From the NCBI GenBank assembly GCA_029265085.1, contig JAJUJY010000075.1:1-20077 (forward strand): a stretch of DNA of 20,077 nucleotides. Direction: 5' to 3'. The notes beneath the pieces were generated by a model that worked only from the letters and a program-made list of their open reading frames with translations, was not told the origin of the DNA and did no database searches. The translations under genes and the position numbers were made by a program. Shown piece by piece: positions 6,675 through 11,630 of the stretch. This stretch comes from Chloroflexota bacterium (GTDB taxonomy: Bacteria; Chloroflexota; Anaerolineae; Anaerolineales; Anaerolineaceae). Every line of letters starts with the position of its first letter. Position 1 is the first letter of the stretch.

Positions 6675-6881
6675 TCAGGTAAACCGCCCTGATCCGCCGC
6701 AGCTGCTGGAACTGCTGCCGCCTGTACTGCCCGTTGTGCTGCTGGCAAAAATCGAAACCAGCTTGTGCGTCTCTTTGCTCTGGCAAACCGGGCATTCAGG
6801 ACGTTGATTTTGCTCGCTGAAGCGGATCATTTTCTCAAACTTTTCCCCGCAAGCATCACATTGATACTCGTATAATGGCAT
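6675..6881 (-). CDS. FmdB-family zinc-ribbon protein
   Basis: This 68-residue protein opens with MPLYEYQCDACGEKFE, the standard FmdB_1/CxxC_CxxC_SSSS start, and holds one zinc ribbon made of Cys8-x2-Cys11 and Cys30-x2-Cys33. It then ends in a Gly/Ser tail with SSSSSCGG, also family-typical. The function of the family is poorly known (named from a putative regulator near amide/formamide operons). The start at 6881 is set by a GGGAGGT site nine bases upstream; an earlier start would bury that site. It is the first gene of the operon with the CsoR/CstR repressor and OsmC protein. The Cys-rich zinc ribbon fits a thiol-stress setting, by inference only. Confidence 0.9.
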   Translation of the reverse strand: MPLYEYQCDACGEKFEKMIRFSEQNQRPECPVCQSKETHKLVSIFASSTTGSTGGSSSSSCGGSGRFT

Positions 6882-6904
6882 AGAAAGGCAACCTCCCAAT
6901 CAAG

Positions 6905-6925
6905 ATATACTCCCCTAGAGTATAT
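6905..6925. promoter_or_regulatory. Probable CsoR/CstR operator palindrome
   Basis: ATATACTC-CCCTA-GAGTATAT: eight-base perfect arms (6905-6912 and 6918-6925) around a C-rich centre. CsoR-family operators typically have A/T-rich outer arms and a G/C tract at the centre. The right arm contains the -10 box of the operon that encodes the repressor, so binding would block RNA polymerase. Confidence 0.7.
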
Positions 6926-6947
6926 TAGTTTTCACTTGTTCTGTCAA
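6919..6947 (-). promoter_or_regulatory. Promoter of the fmdB-like/repressor/osmC-like operon
   Basis: Minus strand: perfect TTGACA (6947-6942), 17-base spacer, TATACT (6924-6919). Transcription would start near 6912, about 30 bases before the ATG at 6881. The -10 box is inside the palindrome at 6905-6925. Confidence 0.85.
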
Positions 6948-7006
6948 TCACAAACGATCGACATTTTGGAAAGGTCATTTCGAAAATGAGAATATCCCGC
7001 CCCAAC

Positions 7007-7034
7007 TTGTTTTGTTGATAATATCGATTATACT
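7007..7034 (+). promoter_or_regulatory. Promoter candidate for the DegV-family gene
   Basis: TTGTTT (7007-7012), 16-base spacer, TATACT (7029-7034), about 35 bases before the ATG at 7070. The -35 box is a partial match. Confidence 0.5.
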
Positions 7035-7069
7035 CAGAACATTATAAACTTACCAAAGAGGAGACACCT

Positions 7070-7915
7070 ATGTCAAAGGTAATCATCATTACCGACAGTA
7101 GTGCCTACCTACCGCAGAATCTTGTTGAGCAATACCCAATCCATGTAATTCCACTGACGCTGAATTGGGACGGGCAAGATTACCGGGATGGGGTGGATAT
7201 TCAGGCAGCAGAGTTTTATACCCGATTAGGCAGTTCAAACACACTGCCAACCACCAGTCAGATCCCTGTACACACATACCAGCAAACTTTCCAGGATTTG
7301 ATTGGACAGGGTTACCAGTGTCTGGTGCTGCCCATCTCCAGCGGAATTTCCAGCAGCCTGCAGTCGGCACTGCAAGCGCAGACCCTCTTCCCGGATGCTC
7401 CGATTGAAGTAATGGATTCAAAATTGGTTTCGATGGCCCTGGGGTTCCAGGTACTGGCGGCAGCGCGCCTGGCCGCGCAGGGTGCCGACCTGGCAGCCTG
7501 CAAAGCCGCTGCTGAAGAAGCATATCCCAAAATCGGCGTTTATTTCACCGTGGACACATTAAAATACCTGGCCGCCGGCGGGCGCATTAACAGCGCCAAG
7601 CGGTTGTTAGGCACAGCGCTGAATATCAAGCCTGTGCTGGAAATCCGCGACGGCAAGATTGAACTGGTCGGCAGTGTAATTTCGCAGCGCAAAGCCATTG
7701 AACGCATGCTCAAACTTGTCGAACAGGGAATCGCCGGGCGCAGCCCGGTGCGCCTATCGGTTTTTCATGCCAACGTGCCGGAAATTGCCCAGGAACTGCA
7801 AGACCGCGCAGCCCAACAATTTGGCGCCGTAGAAGCCATCCTGAGCGAAGTCAGCCCGGTCGTAGGCAGCCACACCGGTCCGGGAACGCTCAGTGTTGCT
7901 TATATGGCAGGCTGA
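7070..7915 (+). CDS. DegV family protein (FakB-like fatty-acid-binding protein)
   Basis: This 281-residue protein is full length for the DegV family, two-domain proteins that hold one fatty acid in a deep pocket. In Gram-positive bacteria the FakB members present the fatty acid to the kinase FakA. The family signatures are present: TDSSAYLP (8-15), the TTSQ loop (61-64), the SSGISSSLQSA segment (90-100) that contacts the carboxylate, GGRI in the middle and LLGTALNIKPVL, plus the C-terminal SHTGPGTLSVAYM. An AGAGGAG ribosome site lies six bases before the ATG. No fakA-like kinase is in the window. Its last 26 bases overlap the 3' end of the convergent polymerase gene. Confidence 0.94.
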   Translation: MSKVIIITDSSAYLPQNLVEQYPIHVIPLTLNWDGQDYRDGVDIQAAEFYTRLGSSNTLPTTSQIPVHTYQQTFQDLIGQGYQCLVLPISSGISSSLQSALQAQTLFPDAPIEVMDSKLVSMALGFQVLAAARLAAQGADLAACKAAAEEAYPKIGVYFTVDTLKYLAAGGRINSAKRLLGTALNIKPVLEIRDGKIELVGSVISQRKAIERMLKLVEQGIAGRSPVRLSVFHANVPEIAQELQDRAAQQFGAVEAILSEVSPVVGSHTGPGTLSVAYMAG

Positions 7916-10115
7916 GCAGTTGGCCGCCCTCTACCCAGGCCTCCAACGCAGCCTGATCATACCCAAACGGTTGAAAAACGCTGCTGGCTGCCCGTAACAA
8001 AAGCAGCCGGTAGCGGCTCACATCCAGGCGGGCCGGGTCCGGCAAATAGGGCAAATCCCAGGCATGCACATCCGGTTGGCCGCGCAAAAACAAAAATCGC
8101 ACCCGCTGGCCGGGTTGAAAATGTTTCCCTAGTTCAGCCAGCTGCGCGGCAGCCCGCGCCGCCGGTGACGGGGTGACATAGCCGGCCAGCTCACGAGTCA
8201 GGCGCTGGCCGACCAACAAGTCCTCTACTGGCACACGCCGCGCGCGCAGTTCCGCCAGACGCTGGCGCAGCACCGCAATCAGATCGGGCAGCAGCGCCGG
8301 AAGCTGATCCGCATCCTCTGCCTGCGCTAAAATTTCCAGCAGCTCCATTTGCACCGCTCCCACCCAGGCCGGGGTATCGCGGCGGCGCGCTTCCAGCCCG
8401 CGCACCTTGAGCGTTCCATCCTGAAACACACCAAAATAGCGGTTAGCGACCGGTACGCGCTCATCCAGCCGTGAAGGCAAAAAAACCACCCAGCGGTAAA
8501 TACCATCCAGCGCCAGCGGCAGCCCGGTGCGGCGGGTAATCTCCTCCACCAACGGCTGAAAATCTTCCACCCGGGCGGCATCCGCACGGTGCACCCAGAT
8601 GCCGTCCACATACAAATGCAGCACCGTACAGCCCTGGTCTTCGGCGGCTTCTTTGGCGCGCAGCAGCGCTTCGCGCCCGCAGGCTGTAACGGCCTCATGC
8701 GCCTCAATTCGCCCAAAACGGGCATTTTTATACCCCAAATAACCAAAACAGGTTACCAACAGCCATTTATGCGCAGCCGTCTTGGCACGGTCAGTGCGGT
8801 TTTTCGGGTCCCAGGCCGGCCGGTTTGCCAGGCGGCGCTTGAGCGCCAGTCGTTTTTCCAACAGCGGCGCCAATGTGCGCGGAATCAAGCCGGGCGGCTG
8901 CGGAGAAGGCCCCAAATCCTGCGGCACGCCGGTCTCCGGCGAAATATTGCAGTACACCATGATACTGGGATACATTGACATAAAGTCTAATTCAGCCACA
9001 TTGCGGTGCAGCCCCACCAGCGGCTGGTAAATCATTCCTCCCTGATCACTGCGCAGCAAATCCAGGGCGGTTTTCTGACGTTCCACCTGCTGCTTGTGCC
9101 AGGGCACCAGAATTCCCGCCCCCGTCTCGCGCCCCGTTTGCAGCGCCGTGCGCATCTGCATGGCGGAGATGCCGCCCCCCGGCGAATTGCGCGCTGCCAC
9201 CTGCACCGGCAGACCGGTAACCCGCGCCGCCTCCAGAACACCTTCCAGGCCGTACTCATCCCAAAGCATGGCGTTGCGGTGATCAATATGCCAGCGGCCA
9301 AACAAGTGCACCTGCTGGCCGCGAAAAATAACCTGGCCGTAGGAAAAATACGAACGCGCCTCGCGGTACCCTGCTTCCCGCCCCAACTGACGGTTGAGCG
9401 GCAAGGTCATACCCCATCGCGCTGACCATTCCATCAGCTGCGGCAGCAGCCAGGTATCTCCCCAGGCGGTCAAGAGCAGGTCAGGATCATGCTGCTGGAG
9501 CAGTGCGCGCAGGTTCACCAGCAGCGGCCGGGTTGGCTCCAGCGGCAGGCGGCACTGGGTGCGCTCGCAGCGCACCAACAGTTCGCGCGGAGCGGCGTGC
9601 TGCGGGTCGCAATCCGGCTCAAGCTGCATCACCCGCAGGGGCGGCGCAGGCGGATCGAAATCCCAGGGGGTATCCAGCACGCGCAGTTCGCGCACAGCCC
9701 CTTGCAGATCAAAAGACACAGCGCAGCGTGCCAGCGGAAACGTATCATAACGGGCGGCATGGTGCAGCGCAAGCGGCAAATCGGCATCATAGTAGGTCAG
9801 GTCAGGGTAGCGCACCATCACCTGCCGAAAAAGCTCCGCCTGGTCTGGCGCACGCGAGCGCACCGCCAGCACCGGCAGCGGATCCGGCAGAAAAAGATCA
9901 CGCCGCCGGGTAAAGAACAGCTCCACCGGAAGCGATTGCCCGCGCAGATAGCGCTGGGCGGCCTCCAAGCCGGATGCCTCTCCGGCAATATAAAACGTCA
10001 CCGCAAAGGATTGGTGCAGGCGCAGCCGTTGGCCGTCTTCAGCCAGCAGCCAGAGCACCAATTCATCTTGCGGGTCCTCATATAAATCAAGCAGCCAACC
10101 AACCGCCTCACCCAT
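7890..10115 (-). CDS. Family B DNA polymerase with degenerate catalytic motifs (PolB2-like)
   Basis: This 741-residue protein shows the family B polymerase order: N-terminal domain, exonuclease-like region, then palm and fingers. Motif A is intact (ELDFMSMYPSIM, Asp377). Motif B appears as K450 to G468 (KWLLVTCFGYLGYKNARFG). Motif C reads LYVDGIWV (502-508), where YxDTD is expected, so the second catalytic Asp is Ile506. A KVRGLEARRRDTP segment (570-582) matches the conserved KG..RRD region. The exonuclease motifs are also degraded: Exo I is FDLQ (135-138) instead of DxE, and Exo II keeps only Asp220. This pattern matches the 'inactivated' PolB2 family known in archaea and some bacteria, linked in Sulfolobales to damage tolerance. 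The start at 10115 overlaps the preceding small gene by eight bases; the longer frame from 10304 is a shadow. Confidence 0.9.
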   Translation of the reverse strand: MGEAVGWLLDLYEDPQDELVLWLLAEDGQRLRLHQSFAVTFYIAGEASGLEAAQRYLRGQSLPVELFFTRRRDLFLPDPLPVLAVRSRAPDQAELFRQVMVRYPDLTYYDADLPLALHHAARYDTFPLARCAVSFDLQGAVRELRVLDTPWDFDPPAPPLRVMQLEPDCDPQHAAPRELLVRCERTQCRLPLEPTRPLLVNLRALLQQHDPDLLLTAWGDTWLLPQLMEWSARWGMTLPLNRQLGREAGYREARSYFSYGQVIFRGQQVHLFGRWHIDHRNAMLWDEYGLEGVLEAARVTGLPVQVAARNSPGGGISAMQMRTALQTGRETGAGILVPWHKQQVERQKTALDLLRSDQGGMIYQPLVGLHRNVAELDFMSMYPSIMVYCNISPETGVPQDLGPSPQPPGLIPRTLAPLLEKRLALKRRLANRPAWDPKNRTDRAKTAAHKWLLVTCFGYLGYKNARFGRIEAHEAVTACGREALLRAKEAAEDQGCTVLHLYVDGIWVHRADAARVEDFQPLVEEITRRTGLPLALDGIYRWVVFLPSRLDERVPVANRYFGVFQDGTLKVRGLEARRRDTPAWVGAVQMELLEILAQAEDADQLPALLPDLIAVLRQRLAELRARRVPVEDLLVGQRLTRELAGYVTPSPAARAAAQLAELGKHFQPGQRVRFLFLRGQPDVHAWDLPYLPDPARLDVSRYRLLLLRAASSVFQPFGYDQAALEAWVEGGQLLSLPYKQH

Positions 10116-10374
10116 CCAACCGCTTCCGCAAATCATCCAGTTGGGTATGCAGGCGCTGCACCTCCTTGTGCTGTTCCAGGAGCATGGCCAACAAAAAAGT
10201 TTCCATCGGCAGGGCGTGGCTGGCATAAGCTGCTGCAGCCAAATGCTGGCGAGCATAGACAAACAAATCATCCAGTGCCTGCTGGTCTGTCCGGCGCAGC
10301 GCACGCCGAAAACGGGTGAAGGCTTCTTGCTCTTCTACAAACGCCTGAGTAATGGATGGCATGGTGCGTCCCAT
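10108..10374 (-). CDS. Small helical protein coupled to the PolB2-like polymerase
   Basis: I do not recognise a family for this 88-residue protein. It looks all-helical, with a Phe/Arg-rich first half (EEQEAFTRFRRALRR), an Ala-rich hydrophobic middle (HLAAAAYASHALPMETFLLAMLLEQ) and a charged C-terminal helix with coiled-coil character (about residues 65-86). The start at 10374 is fixed by a perfect AGGAGG eight bases upstream; an ATG 24 bases further up would place that site inside the gene. Its TGA overlaps the polymerase ATG (10108-10115), so the two are translated together, suggesting a stoichiometric partner or loading subunit for the polymerase. Confidence 0.85.
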   Translation of the reverse strand: MGRTMPSITQAFVEEQEAFTRFRRALRRTDQQALDDLFVYARQHLAAAAYASHALPMETFLLAMLLEQHKEVQRLHTQLDDLRKRLDG

Positions 10375-10456
10375 AATGTTTTCCTCCTTTGCATTCAAAC
10401 GCAGACTGCCGCTTCGGTGCTGGCAGATTCCGCCTCATACAGTTGATCAAAACAAT

Positions 10457-10948
10457 CTAGACCAGTCCATCCGCCGCCGCAAGCAGCGCATCAAACAAGG
10501 GCTGGCGCTGCGCAGCCGCGGCGCGGGGCGGGCGCGCTGTCACAACCAGCGGAGCCGACTGGCGCAGCCGCTGCAAATGGTGAATAGACAGTTCCAGCAG
10601 CCGCTGGCTCTCCCACAGCGGCACGCTCTCATCATAATAGGTATCCAAGATGTCCAGCACCAGGGTTGGCACAGGTTCTGCCGGGCTGTTGGCCAGCAGG
10701 GTCAGCATCTGATAACAGGTGAAAGCGCGCGCAAGGCGCACATTGCGCAGCGACTCGGTCAACGCGGCCGTACGGCGGCGCAGTTGGCGAGCCAGAGGAT
10801 AGATATTGATGCAGTTACCGCCGTCTAACACACGCAGCGGCGCATTCAAAGCCAGGCGTGCGATTAAATCCAACACGGCAGCTGGCATACGCTCCGCAGC
10901 GGGAGCCAGCAAAAACTGATTGGGCAGTGGATCGGGAAATGGTTTCAT
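10457..10948 (-). CDS. RecA/RadA-like protein lacking a P-loop, polymerase-cassette accessory
   Basis: This protein of about 163 residues has the outline of a RecA-fold core. A strand followed by a loop at 38-50 (LRVLDGGNCINIY) stands where Walker A should be, but there is no GxxGxGK[TS]. NVRLARAFTCYQM (69-81) strongly recalls the NI-VARAFNS-HQ segment of RadA/Rad51. A Walker-B-like strand, VPTLVLDILDTYYDE, is at 93-107, and a late strand APLVVTARP at 132-140 recalls the sensor strand. It therefore probably cannot bind ATP in the usual way and may act structurally, as ImuA-type RecA paralogues do. The start is uncertain: 10948 is chosen because the upstream frame runs through a C/G-tract repeat. 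It lies 82 bases before the small polymerase-linked gene. Confidence 0.7.
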   Translation of the reverse strand: MKPFPDPLPNQFLLAPAAERMPAAVLDLIARLALNAPLRVLDGGNCINIYPLARQLRRRTAALTESLRNVRLARAFTCYQMLTLLANSPAEPVPTLVLDILDTYYDESVPLWESQRLLELSIHHLQRLRQSAPLVVTARPPRAAAAQRQPLFDALLAAADGLV

Positions 10949-10955
10949 ACTTCCC

Positions 10956-10984
10956 AGAGTAGGCTCCGCAGCCCAAATTTTCAA
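10956..10984 (-). promoter_or_regulatory. Possible internal promoter giving a leaderless transcript
   Basis: Minus strand: TTGAAA (10984-10979), 17-base spacer, TACTCT (10961-10956). Transcription would start at or next to the ATG at 10948, which lacks a well-spaced ribosome site. Match quality is moderate, so this could be chance. Confidence 0.35.
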
Positions 10985-10985
10985 T

Positions 10986-11045
10986 CCCCCCTCGGGGGGA
11001 CATTGGGGGGACAAAATGGAGTACCCCCTTGGGGTGACGTACCCC
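10986..11045. repeat. C/G-tract palindromes between regulator and RecA-like gene
   Basis: CCCCCC-TC-GGGGGG (10986-10999) is followed by GGGGGG (11005-11010) and two copies of GTACCCC (11021-11027, 11039-11045). The style resembles the C/G-tract repeat at 1686-1773. Its position inside an apparent operon could create RNA structure that reduces read-through from the upstream regulator gene. Confidence 0.5.
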
Positions 11046-11094
11046 TATGCCCGCTGGTTCATTCCACCCCCAGCCCTGGCGCTGTGCAGCAAGC

Positions 11095-11496
11095 CTATTG
11101 CCAGGCGCTGAAATCCCAATCCACCAGCAAACGGCGCAGTTCCTCACGGCTGTGCACGTTAAATTTGACCAGGGCGCGGCGCGCATACGTACGCACCGTT
11201 TCCGGAGAAAGCACCAGGCGGGCAGCTGCCTGGCGCGTGGTGTATCCCAGGCAAATTAATGCCACAGTATCCTGCTCGCGCGCCGTCAAGCCCTGCCAGC
11301 GCTCCCAGGCACTTTCCAATGTCTGCCGCTGCTGAATGGCCTGCTGGATCAAATTGGCAGCCACTTCCTCTGGTTCCAGGCGTTCCTGGTCTGCTAAAGC
11401 GCGCAAAGAACGCTGCAAGTCGGCATCCAGCGTAAAAACACGCTGCGCCGATGACTGCCCGCCCAACCAGTTCAGCAAACGCTTCCAGACTTGCAT
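11095..11496 (-). CDS. Small LuxR-type HTH regulator with possible ribbon-helix-helix N-terminus
   Basis: This 133-residue protein is the first gene of the polymerase cassette. Residues 69-125 (LTAREQDTVALICLGYTTRQAAARLVLSPETVRTYARRAL...) form a clear LuxR/FixJ-type four-helix DNA-binding domain, including the usual LTxRE start. There is no receiver or ligand domain. Instead residues 19-57 (RVFTLDADLQRSLRALADQERLEPEEVAANLIQQAIQQR) fit a beta strand plus two helices as in ribbon-helix-helix (CopG/MetJ-like) proteins, which would make a dimerising or second DNA-binding part. A GAGG site lies about eight bases before the ATG at 11496. It may regulate its own operon through the inverted repeats at 11517-11586. 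Confidence 0.85.
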   Translation of the reverse strand: MQVWKRLLNWLGGQSSAQRVFTLDADLQRSLRALADQERLEPEEVAANLIQQAIQQRQTLESAWERWQGLTAREQDTVALICLGYTTRQAAARLVLSPETVRTYARRALVKFNVHSREELRRLLVDWDFSAWQ

Positions 11497-11516
11497 AGCT
11501 TAACCTCAGCTCGAGA

Positions 11517-11586
11517 TCAGGAATTTTTTGTATTCAGCTGGTTTCACCGCTTGAATACAAAGAAAACCGATTCAGCCCATTCCTGA
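11517..11586. promoter_or_regulatory. Two nested inverted repeats in the leader of the polymerase cassette
   Basis: Inner pair: TTTGTATTCA (11527-11536) and TGAATACAAA (11552-11561), perfect over ten bases with a 15-base spacer. Outer pair: TCAGGAAT (11517-11524) and ATTCCTGA (11579-11586). They lie downstream of the predicted start of transcription and upstream of the regulator ATG at 11496. They may be operator half-sites for the cassette's own regulator or a leader RNA structure. Confidence 0.5.
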
Positions 11587-11601
11587 ATTTATGTCAATTT
11601 A

Positions 11602-11630
11602 ATTGTATAGAACATCTGTTCATTCGTCAA
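11602..11630 (-). promoter_or_regulatory. Promoter of the polymerase cassette
   Basis: Minus strand: TTGACG (11630-11625), 17-base spacer, TACAAT (11607-11602), near consensus. It gives a leader of about 100 bases to the ATG at 11496. A GAAC-N4-GTTC palindrome fills the spacer. Confidence 0.75.
11610..11621. promoter_or_regulatory. Candidate LexA/SOS box
   Basis: GAACATCTGTTC matches GAAC-N4-GTTC, the core of the Bacillus/actinobacterial-type LexA (DinR) operator, and sits exactly between the -35 and -10 boxes of the cassette promoter, an ideal place for repression. The outer C/G of the full Bacillus consensus is absent. No lexA gene is in the window, so the host LexA site is unknown. Confidence 0.6.

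Follow-up and report, generated by a model that had tools for sequence, protein, structure and literature searches.

The locus examined here raises the question of how a bacterial polymerase cassette is brought under the control of the SOS response. The window, by which we mean the whole stretch of Chloroflexota bacterium DNA that was analysed (20,077 nt), carries on its minus strand a small LuxR-type gene followed by genes for iRadA, PPB2 and the family B DNA polymerase PolB2. The last three (7890-10948, minus strand) make up a PolB2 mutasome operon of a known kind, and this core is not new, since the PolB2 mutasome complex has already been published as a model (2025); the new part is the control circuit. 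Our comparison of relatives suggests that the SOS alarm often switches the PolB2 cassette on indirectly, via the small regulator, and a two-step circuit, in which LexA represses the regulator and the regulator activates the mutasome, appears rather probable. Read 5' to 3' on the minus strand, the cassette consists of the luxR promoter, the LuxR-type gene, a 146-base gap, iRadA, PPB2 and PolB2, with the following features:

11602..11630, minus strand: sigma70-type promoter of the luxR-type gene (-35 TTGACG at 11630-11625, 17-base-pair (bp) spacer, -10 TACAAT at 11607-11602)
11610..11621, no strand assigned: LexA operator GAAC-N4-GTTC, GAACAGATGTTC, inside the spacer of the luxR promoter
11095..11496, minus strand: LuxR-type regulator, 133 residues (Pfam GerE, E = 8.4e-11, 41.8 bits, cut-off 23.5)
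10985..11042, no strand assigned: C-tracts and dyads preceding the iRadA promoter, with GTCCCCCCAAT-GTCCCCCCGAGGGGGGA at 11012-10985 abutting the -35 and a further CCCC/GGGG dyad at 11042-11021
10956..10984, minus strand: sigma70-type promoter of iRadA (-35 TTGAAA at 10984-10979, 17-bp spacer, -10 TACTCT at 10961-10956)
10457..10948, minus strand: iRadA, P-loop-less RadA/Rad51-like protein, 163 residues
10108..10374, minus strand: PPB2, 88 residues, N-terminus MGRT
7890..10115, minus strand: PolB2 family B DNA polymerase, 741 residues (Pfam DNA_pol_B, 3.9e-24)

An earlier note on this DNA had described four minus-strand genes in a row, an 8-base overlap and a palindrome, all of which were confirmed in the window sequence; the overlap, ATGGGTGA, joins the PPB2 and PolB2 genes at 10115-10108. 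The note missed the second promoter and the C-tract array before iRadA, as well as the role of the LuxR-type gene, which is probably a LexA-controlled relay and more than a member of the operon.

Relatives were gathered by whole-genome searches, a single-protein scan of genome contigs having given one locus. PolB2 at E ≤1e-100 was encountered in 38/396 genomes of the class and in 194/400 genomes of the order around the relative G001, and a phylum sample gave 17 PolB2 matches below 1e-150 in 16/301 genomes, the next matches appearing only at 1e-16; the class, order and phylum samples overlap. Upstream DNA was assembled in sets of 17, 23 and 40 loci, the third of which was hand-picked from the top of the list, with hits near a contig start and the genome G849 excluded. 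After two contig-end loci (L052 and L154) were dropped from all neighbour counts, 78 related loci remained, which are not independent and include several near copies; shorter copies of loci (L007-L022) were counted once, under other identifiers. iRadA and PPB2 were each found by PolB2 in 75 of these 78 loci, which bears out the co-occurrence that the earlier note had proposed as a check, and a LuxR-type gene lay near iRadA in 52. The order iRadA-PPB2-PolB2 on one strand holds for the window and for all 74 of the 74 related loci with both partners. L167 (G802) and L169 (G840) carry PolB2 with no iRadA, PPB2 or regulator detectable within 2.7 kilobases upstream. Both were scored as misses in the neighbour counts and L156 as an iRadA miss, and the three were left out of the promoter counts, neither iRadA nor a regulator having been found in them.

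Taken by itself, the palindrome in the 20-kilobase window is not significant, at least one copy occurring in 20 of 100 shuffles. By comparison among relatives, GAAC-N4-GTTC is the local LexA operator, because it is present in lexA promoters and also ahead of the cassette's first gene. The comparison of lexA and recA operators covered the genomes of relatives: a lexA gene above the family cut-off was present in 16/16 and its promoter carried the box in all 16 (15 exact, one with one mismatch), while the recA promoters showed the variant GAACN4GTGC in 14/17 loci and the exact box in none. The extended pattern TAGAACN4GTTCTA occurred in 40 copies in the 16 relative genomes, against a single copy of the backward pattern. 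Before the first cassette gene, an initial sample gave the box exactly in 28/37 loci and with at most one mismatch in 36/37; in the same 37 loci the backward pattern gave 0 and 5, and PolB2 coding DNA 0 and 2. The third set yielded 23/38 exact and 31/38 with at most one mismatch (backward pattern 1 and 6), so that both samples pooled reached 51/75 and 67/75 (backward 1 and 11). The operator sequence across relatives thus sustains the SOS control by LexA that had been claimed for the window. The layout of the luxR promoter is similar in many relatives as well, the box often lying between a TTGAC -35 and the -10.

Several further observations concern this box. In the window, 113 bases with a stem-loop, TGTATTCA...TGAATACA, separate it from the luxR-type start codon (11497-11609, minus strand); in many relatives this distance is only 14-20 bases. 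TAGAACN4GTTCTA recurs near a conserved membrane-protein-like gene (...FAGIARIFTPEQGRDEP...) in L119, L124, L126, L128, L129, L133 and L135, from four genomes, and the FAGIARIFTPEQGRDEP-type stretch is similar in each of the seven loci. In L136 (G169), an exact TAGAACN4GTTCTA box marks the start of a further small protein, whose helix-turn-helix looks LuxR-type by eye. L118 (G298) has at 6683-7687 a copy of the LuxR-type gene standing alone, preceded by an exact LexA box, and the gene after it appears TIR-domain-like by eye.

The gap between the LuxR-type gene and iRadA contains a second promoter with an array of C-tracts in front of it. Fifty-two loci align on a sigma70-type promoter before iRadA, with the -10 usually 6-7 bases from the start codon (7 nt before the ATG in the window). 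Among the 44 of 52 loci kept for scoring after near copies were removed, a promoter score of at least 7 was reached in 24, against 3% of shuffles searched alike, and the 6-7 base gap was present in 37. Since the -10 lies only 6-7 bases before the start codon, the iRadA message is probably leaderless. Relatives often have a G-tract abutting the iRadA -35 and C-tracts farther upstream, and at least four C-runs were counted in the 120 bp before iRadA in 31 of 53 loci with an adjacent regulator and in 4 of 23 without. The regularity of the array is modest: spacing of 11-12 bp gave a summed z of 3.1 (lags 11 and 12), the maximum among 26 lags, against 3.5-3.6 at lags 6 and 27 in a coding control and 2.0 in a second control, for 24 of 30 loci (four near copies and two loci with long inserts were removed). 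A dyad near the -35 was likewise modestly enriched (15/41 loci, 11.5% in shuffles). With the ATG taken as the transcription start, the proximal dyad of the window has its centre near -43; LuxR-family activators often bind near -42. A conserved RNA element in the form of an intergenic hairpin was considered and rejected (mean folding z -1.6, 10/30 loci below -2, window -0.04). A pattern modelled on the iRadA promoter gave 39 matches, spread over 28 of the 52 genomes, and 3 in the control; iRadA promoters account for 11 of the 39. The PolB2 mutasome is the one clearly recurrent target predicted for the regulator so far, and there may be others.

The two kinds of promoter before iRadA are distributed according to the presence of the regulator. 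In 76 loci (window included), in which a LexA box with at most one mismatch was scored within 120 bp of iRadA, the box was found in 7/53 loci with an adjacent LuxR-type gene and in 15/23 without (Fisher p 1e-5). Sorted by eye, the 23 loci without an adjacent regulator comprised 8 with an array-type promoter, 14 with a LexA box in promoter context (LexA-direct) and one with neither; one of the eight array-type loci has a one-mismatch box, probably by chance; such a box, in L191, was kept in the 120-bp counts. The prediction set beforehand was that the 8 array genomes encode the regulator elsewhere and the 14 LexA-direct genomes do not, a full-length relative being defined by E below 1e-25. Such a relative was found on another contig in 6/8 array genomes and in 0/13 single-copy LexA-direct genomes (Fisher p 5e-4; 2e-3 when G750, described below, is counted against), and the promoters of all six other-contig regulators carry a LexA box (5 exact, one with one mismatch; none in the backward control). 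A tree built from the joined ends of iRadA, PPB2 and PolB2 requires 6 changes for the LexA-direct type, and supported branches force no fewer than 4 of them. A second exact LexA box stands directly before iRadA despite an adjacent regulator in L037 (5980) and L141 (3907; both positions in operon orientation), and a near copy of the box in L038.

Together, these comparisons point to the two-step circuit. In the undamaged cell, LexA would sit on the box within the promoter of the LuxR-type gene and keep it off; upon damage, LexA would be cleaved and the small regulator made. The regulator would then bind the C-tract dyads just upstream of the iRadA -35 and activate iRadA-PPB2-PolB2, whose products would assemble a complex for lesion bypass. 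An activating effect, as opposed to another one, is favoured because a repressor of the mutasome that is itself under LexA control would make little sense upon damage. An activator also accounts for the usual lack of a LexA box at the mutasome promoter when the regulator is present, for LexA being there when the regulator is missing, and for the persistence of the array-type promoter where the regulator gene lies elsewhere. For Anaerolineae-type Chloroflexota in general, the balance tips only slightly towards a two-tiered SOS response, in which LexA acts through a dedicated LuxR-type activator on the PolB2 mutasome, bypass would begin only after the regulator has accumulated, and regulator-less lineages place LexA directly at the mutasome promoter.

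A number of findings weigh against this circuit. In seven loci the regulator coexists with a LexA box close to iRadA, and 8 of the 52 regulators adjacent to iRadA matched over the helix-turn-helix alone, so that they may be LuxR-type genes of another kind. The 22 genomes were labelled array or LexA-direct by eye before the test, and only 4/8 array loci have at least four C-runs. Four of the 22 outcomes were known earlier (G105 positive; G291, G177 and G233 negative), so that the blind part of the prediction amounts to 5/7 against 0/10, plus G750, a genome labelled LexA-direct which encodes the regulator beside its second PolB2 copy. No regulator was detectable in the array genomes G811 and G774; the genomes may be incomplete. 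On the tree, 4 to 7 independent pairs are available, of which about 3 agree with the circuit, on average 0 disagree and the rest are equal, a trend in the expected direction but with too few pairs for significance. The array sequence itself differs between lineages and might be a terminator, since a T-run follows its hairpin in several loci; of the matches to the promoter pattern, 28 lie outside iRadA promoters, none of them, by our own reading, recurring in more than two genomes.

One alternative is a plain LexA-controlled operon of four genes, all transcribed from the LexA-box promoter, in which the LuxR-type protein would serve for fine-tuning or autoregulation and the C-tracts would be no more than a leaky terminator or attenuator. 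The adjacency of the regulator in 52/78 loci, the LexA boxes in front of the cassette and the hairpin plus T-run of several intergenic regions (e.g., L040, L140, L142 and L149) agree with such an operon, which, however, would not account for the conservation of a promoter at a nearly fixed distance from the iRadA ATG and fails to explain why the array-type iRadA promoter is kept where the regulator sits on another contig; we regard it as unlikely. The same hairpins might instead be read as the target of an antiterminator, by which RNA polymerase would pass the hairpin before iRadA as with AlpA of Pseudomonas aeruginosa, AlpR/AlpA being a known relay of such kind (PMC12796719). Terminator-like hairpins are present in part of the loci, but the T-run after the hairpin is missing from some of them, the window included, and a regulator encoded elsewhere leaves no upstream reading to rescue, yet the array-type promoter stays, which makes antitermination very improbable. 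That the mutasome contains the LuxR-type protein as a DNA-binding subunit with no regulatory role, as the frequent linkage and joint damage control could imply, is the least credible proposal, since 13 tested genomes have iRadA, PPB2 and PolB2 without a full-length relative and with a LexA box at their iRadA promoters, and in six genomes the regulator gene stands apart from the cassette.

The protein placed at the centre of the two-step circuit is a LuxR-type regulator, as the earlier note had proposed, its GerE helix-turn-helix being confirmed by Pfam and by fold. GerE was matched in 34/34 regulator relatives, which share an invariant W-D and a W within a WDFSxW C-terminal tail. The AlphaFold model has a mean predicted local distance difference test (pLDDT) score of 88.4, with the first 20 residues not confident, and Foldseek aligned its C-terminal part with DNA-binding domains of LuxR type (best E 1.1e-3, probability 1.00). 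Ribbon-helix-helix Pfam families were matched in 2/34 relatives each, and the N-terminal half may tentatively be ribbon-helix-helix-like; in the monomer model it is helical and has no strand. No receiver domain family was among the matches listed for the regulator and its relatives, and the protein is just 133 residues long. A title-level survey of the open-access literature, with subscription papers and supplements outside its scope, returned nothing relevant on mutasome and LuxR, on Anaerolineae and LexA or on PolB2 and Chloroflexi.

The three downstream genes were recognized as iRadA, PPB2 and PolB2 because of a RadA-like protein without P-loop, an 88-residue protein starting with MGRT and a polymerase that has lost the first Asp of its DxD motif. 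The window iRadA has no Walker A motif, no GKT or GKS being found in it. A profile of 53 iRadA relatives matched archaeal RadA (E 5e-7), and Foldseek placed the AlphaFold model (mean pLDDT 95.2) with structures of the RadA/Rad51 family. The earlier description of a RecA-like protein thus holds for the RecA fold and the absent ATP site, although the protein is nearer to RadA/Rad51 than to bacterial RecA. The PPB2 gene is preceded by a Shine-Dalgarno-like AAAGGAGG, and the exact MGRT start recurs in 65/75 loci. The best NCBIfam match of PolB2 is PRK05761.1-2 (4.2e-114, under the model's own cut-off), and its assignment to the PolB2 group rests on this profile and on motifs. In alignment with solved archaeal polymerases from the PDB, motif A keeps its Asp, and DxD keeps the second Asp and has Tyr in place of the first (YVD). 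The catalytic motifs had been called damaged, which is right for the first Asp; with the other two Asp residues retained, the polymerase need not be dead. The Exo I D-I-E is aligned to E-P-D in a weak stretch of 4.7 bits. One further feature was noted in PolB2:

7902..7922, minus strand: candidate beta-clamp motif QLLSLPY at the C-terminus of PolB2, by eye against the QLxLF motif (PMC11791011)

Three residues after this motif finish the window PolB2. In the first locus set the iRadA C-terminus is often QxxLF-like (e.g., HQLPLF, QPSLF or QLALF), and the short iRadA of the window is without the tail common in relatives. A clamp motif in PolB2 instead of iRadA fits, by eye, the published pattern of one or the other.

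As to its surroundings, the PolB2 gene overlaps at its end by 26 bases with a convergent gene that we take to be DegV-like, and Rfam and tRNA searches of the window gave no match.

How bacteria hold back error-prone repair so that accurate repair can act first is a central question of the SOS response. E. coli delays error-prone repair through operator strength and UmuD cleavage. If the two-step circuit is true, an activator under LexA control and dedicated to a translesion polymerase would solve this problem in another way, centred on an enzyme that came from archaea. The comparison also supplies a LexA operator for Chloroflexota, a large and little-studied phylum.

Like the window cassette, the ImuA-ImuB-DnaE2 mutasome (PMC12926913) is an SOS-controlled system that pairs an error-prone polymerase with a protein of RecA fold. 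Its polymerases, Y-family ImuB and C-family DnaE2, are unrelated, and the sole polymerase of the window cassette is of the B family. The PrtR/PrtN and AlpR/AlpA systems of Pseudomonas aeruginosa likewise set a damage-responsive repressor, PrtR or AlpR, over a dedicated positive regulator as a second tier, but they drive pyocin and lysis genes (PMC12796719), where the window would have LexA itself and a translesion polymerase cassette. In Sulfolobales, archaeal Dpo2 (PolB2) is active, damage-induced and required for targeted mutagenesis (PMC7390963, PMC11791011); the polymerase is homologous and its partner genes are the same, while damage control is exerted via Orc1/Cdc6 homologues (PMC11791011), in contrast to LexA and a LuxR-type protein in the window. 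The closest system is the PolB2 mutasome of archaea and bacteria modelled by Timinskas, Timinskas and Venclovas in 2025 as a heteropentamer of one PolB2, one iRadA and three PPB2, with iRadA-PPB2-PolB2 as the sole order reported for bacteria and lexA genes reported near bacterial polB2 (PMC11791011); the linked trio had been noted earlier (PMC4104785). The window shares with it the three proteins, their order, the MGRT start, a P-loop-less RadA relative and the lost first Asp of DxD. The earlier note was therefore right in seeing a mutasome-like cassette, but not in calling it a non-homologous counterpart: the cassette has no relationship to ImuA/ImuB/DnaE2, but the archaeal PolB2-iRadA-PPB2 is homologous and the mutasome already proposed (PMC11791011). 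To this system, the published account of which contains neither "Chloroflex" nor "LuxR" in its main text, the window adds a LuxR-type gene, a second promoter and an array.

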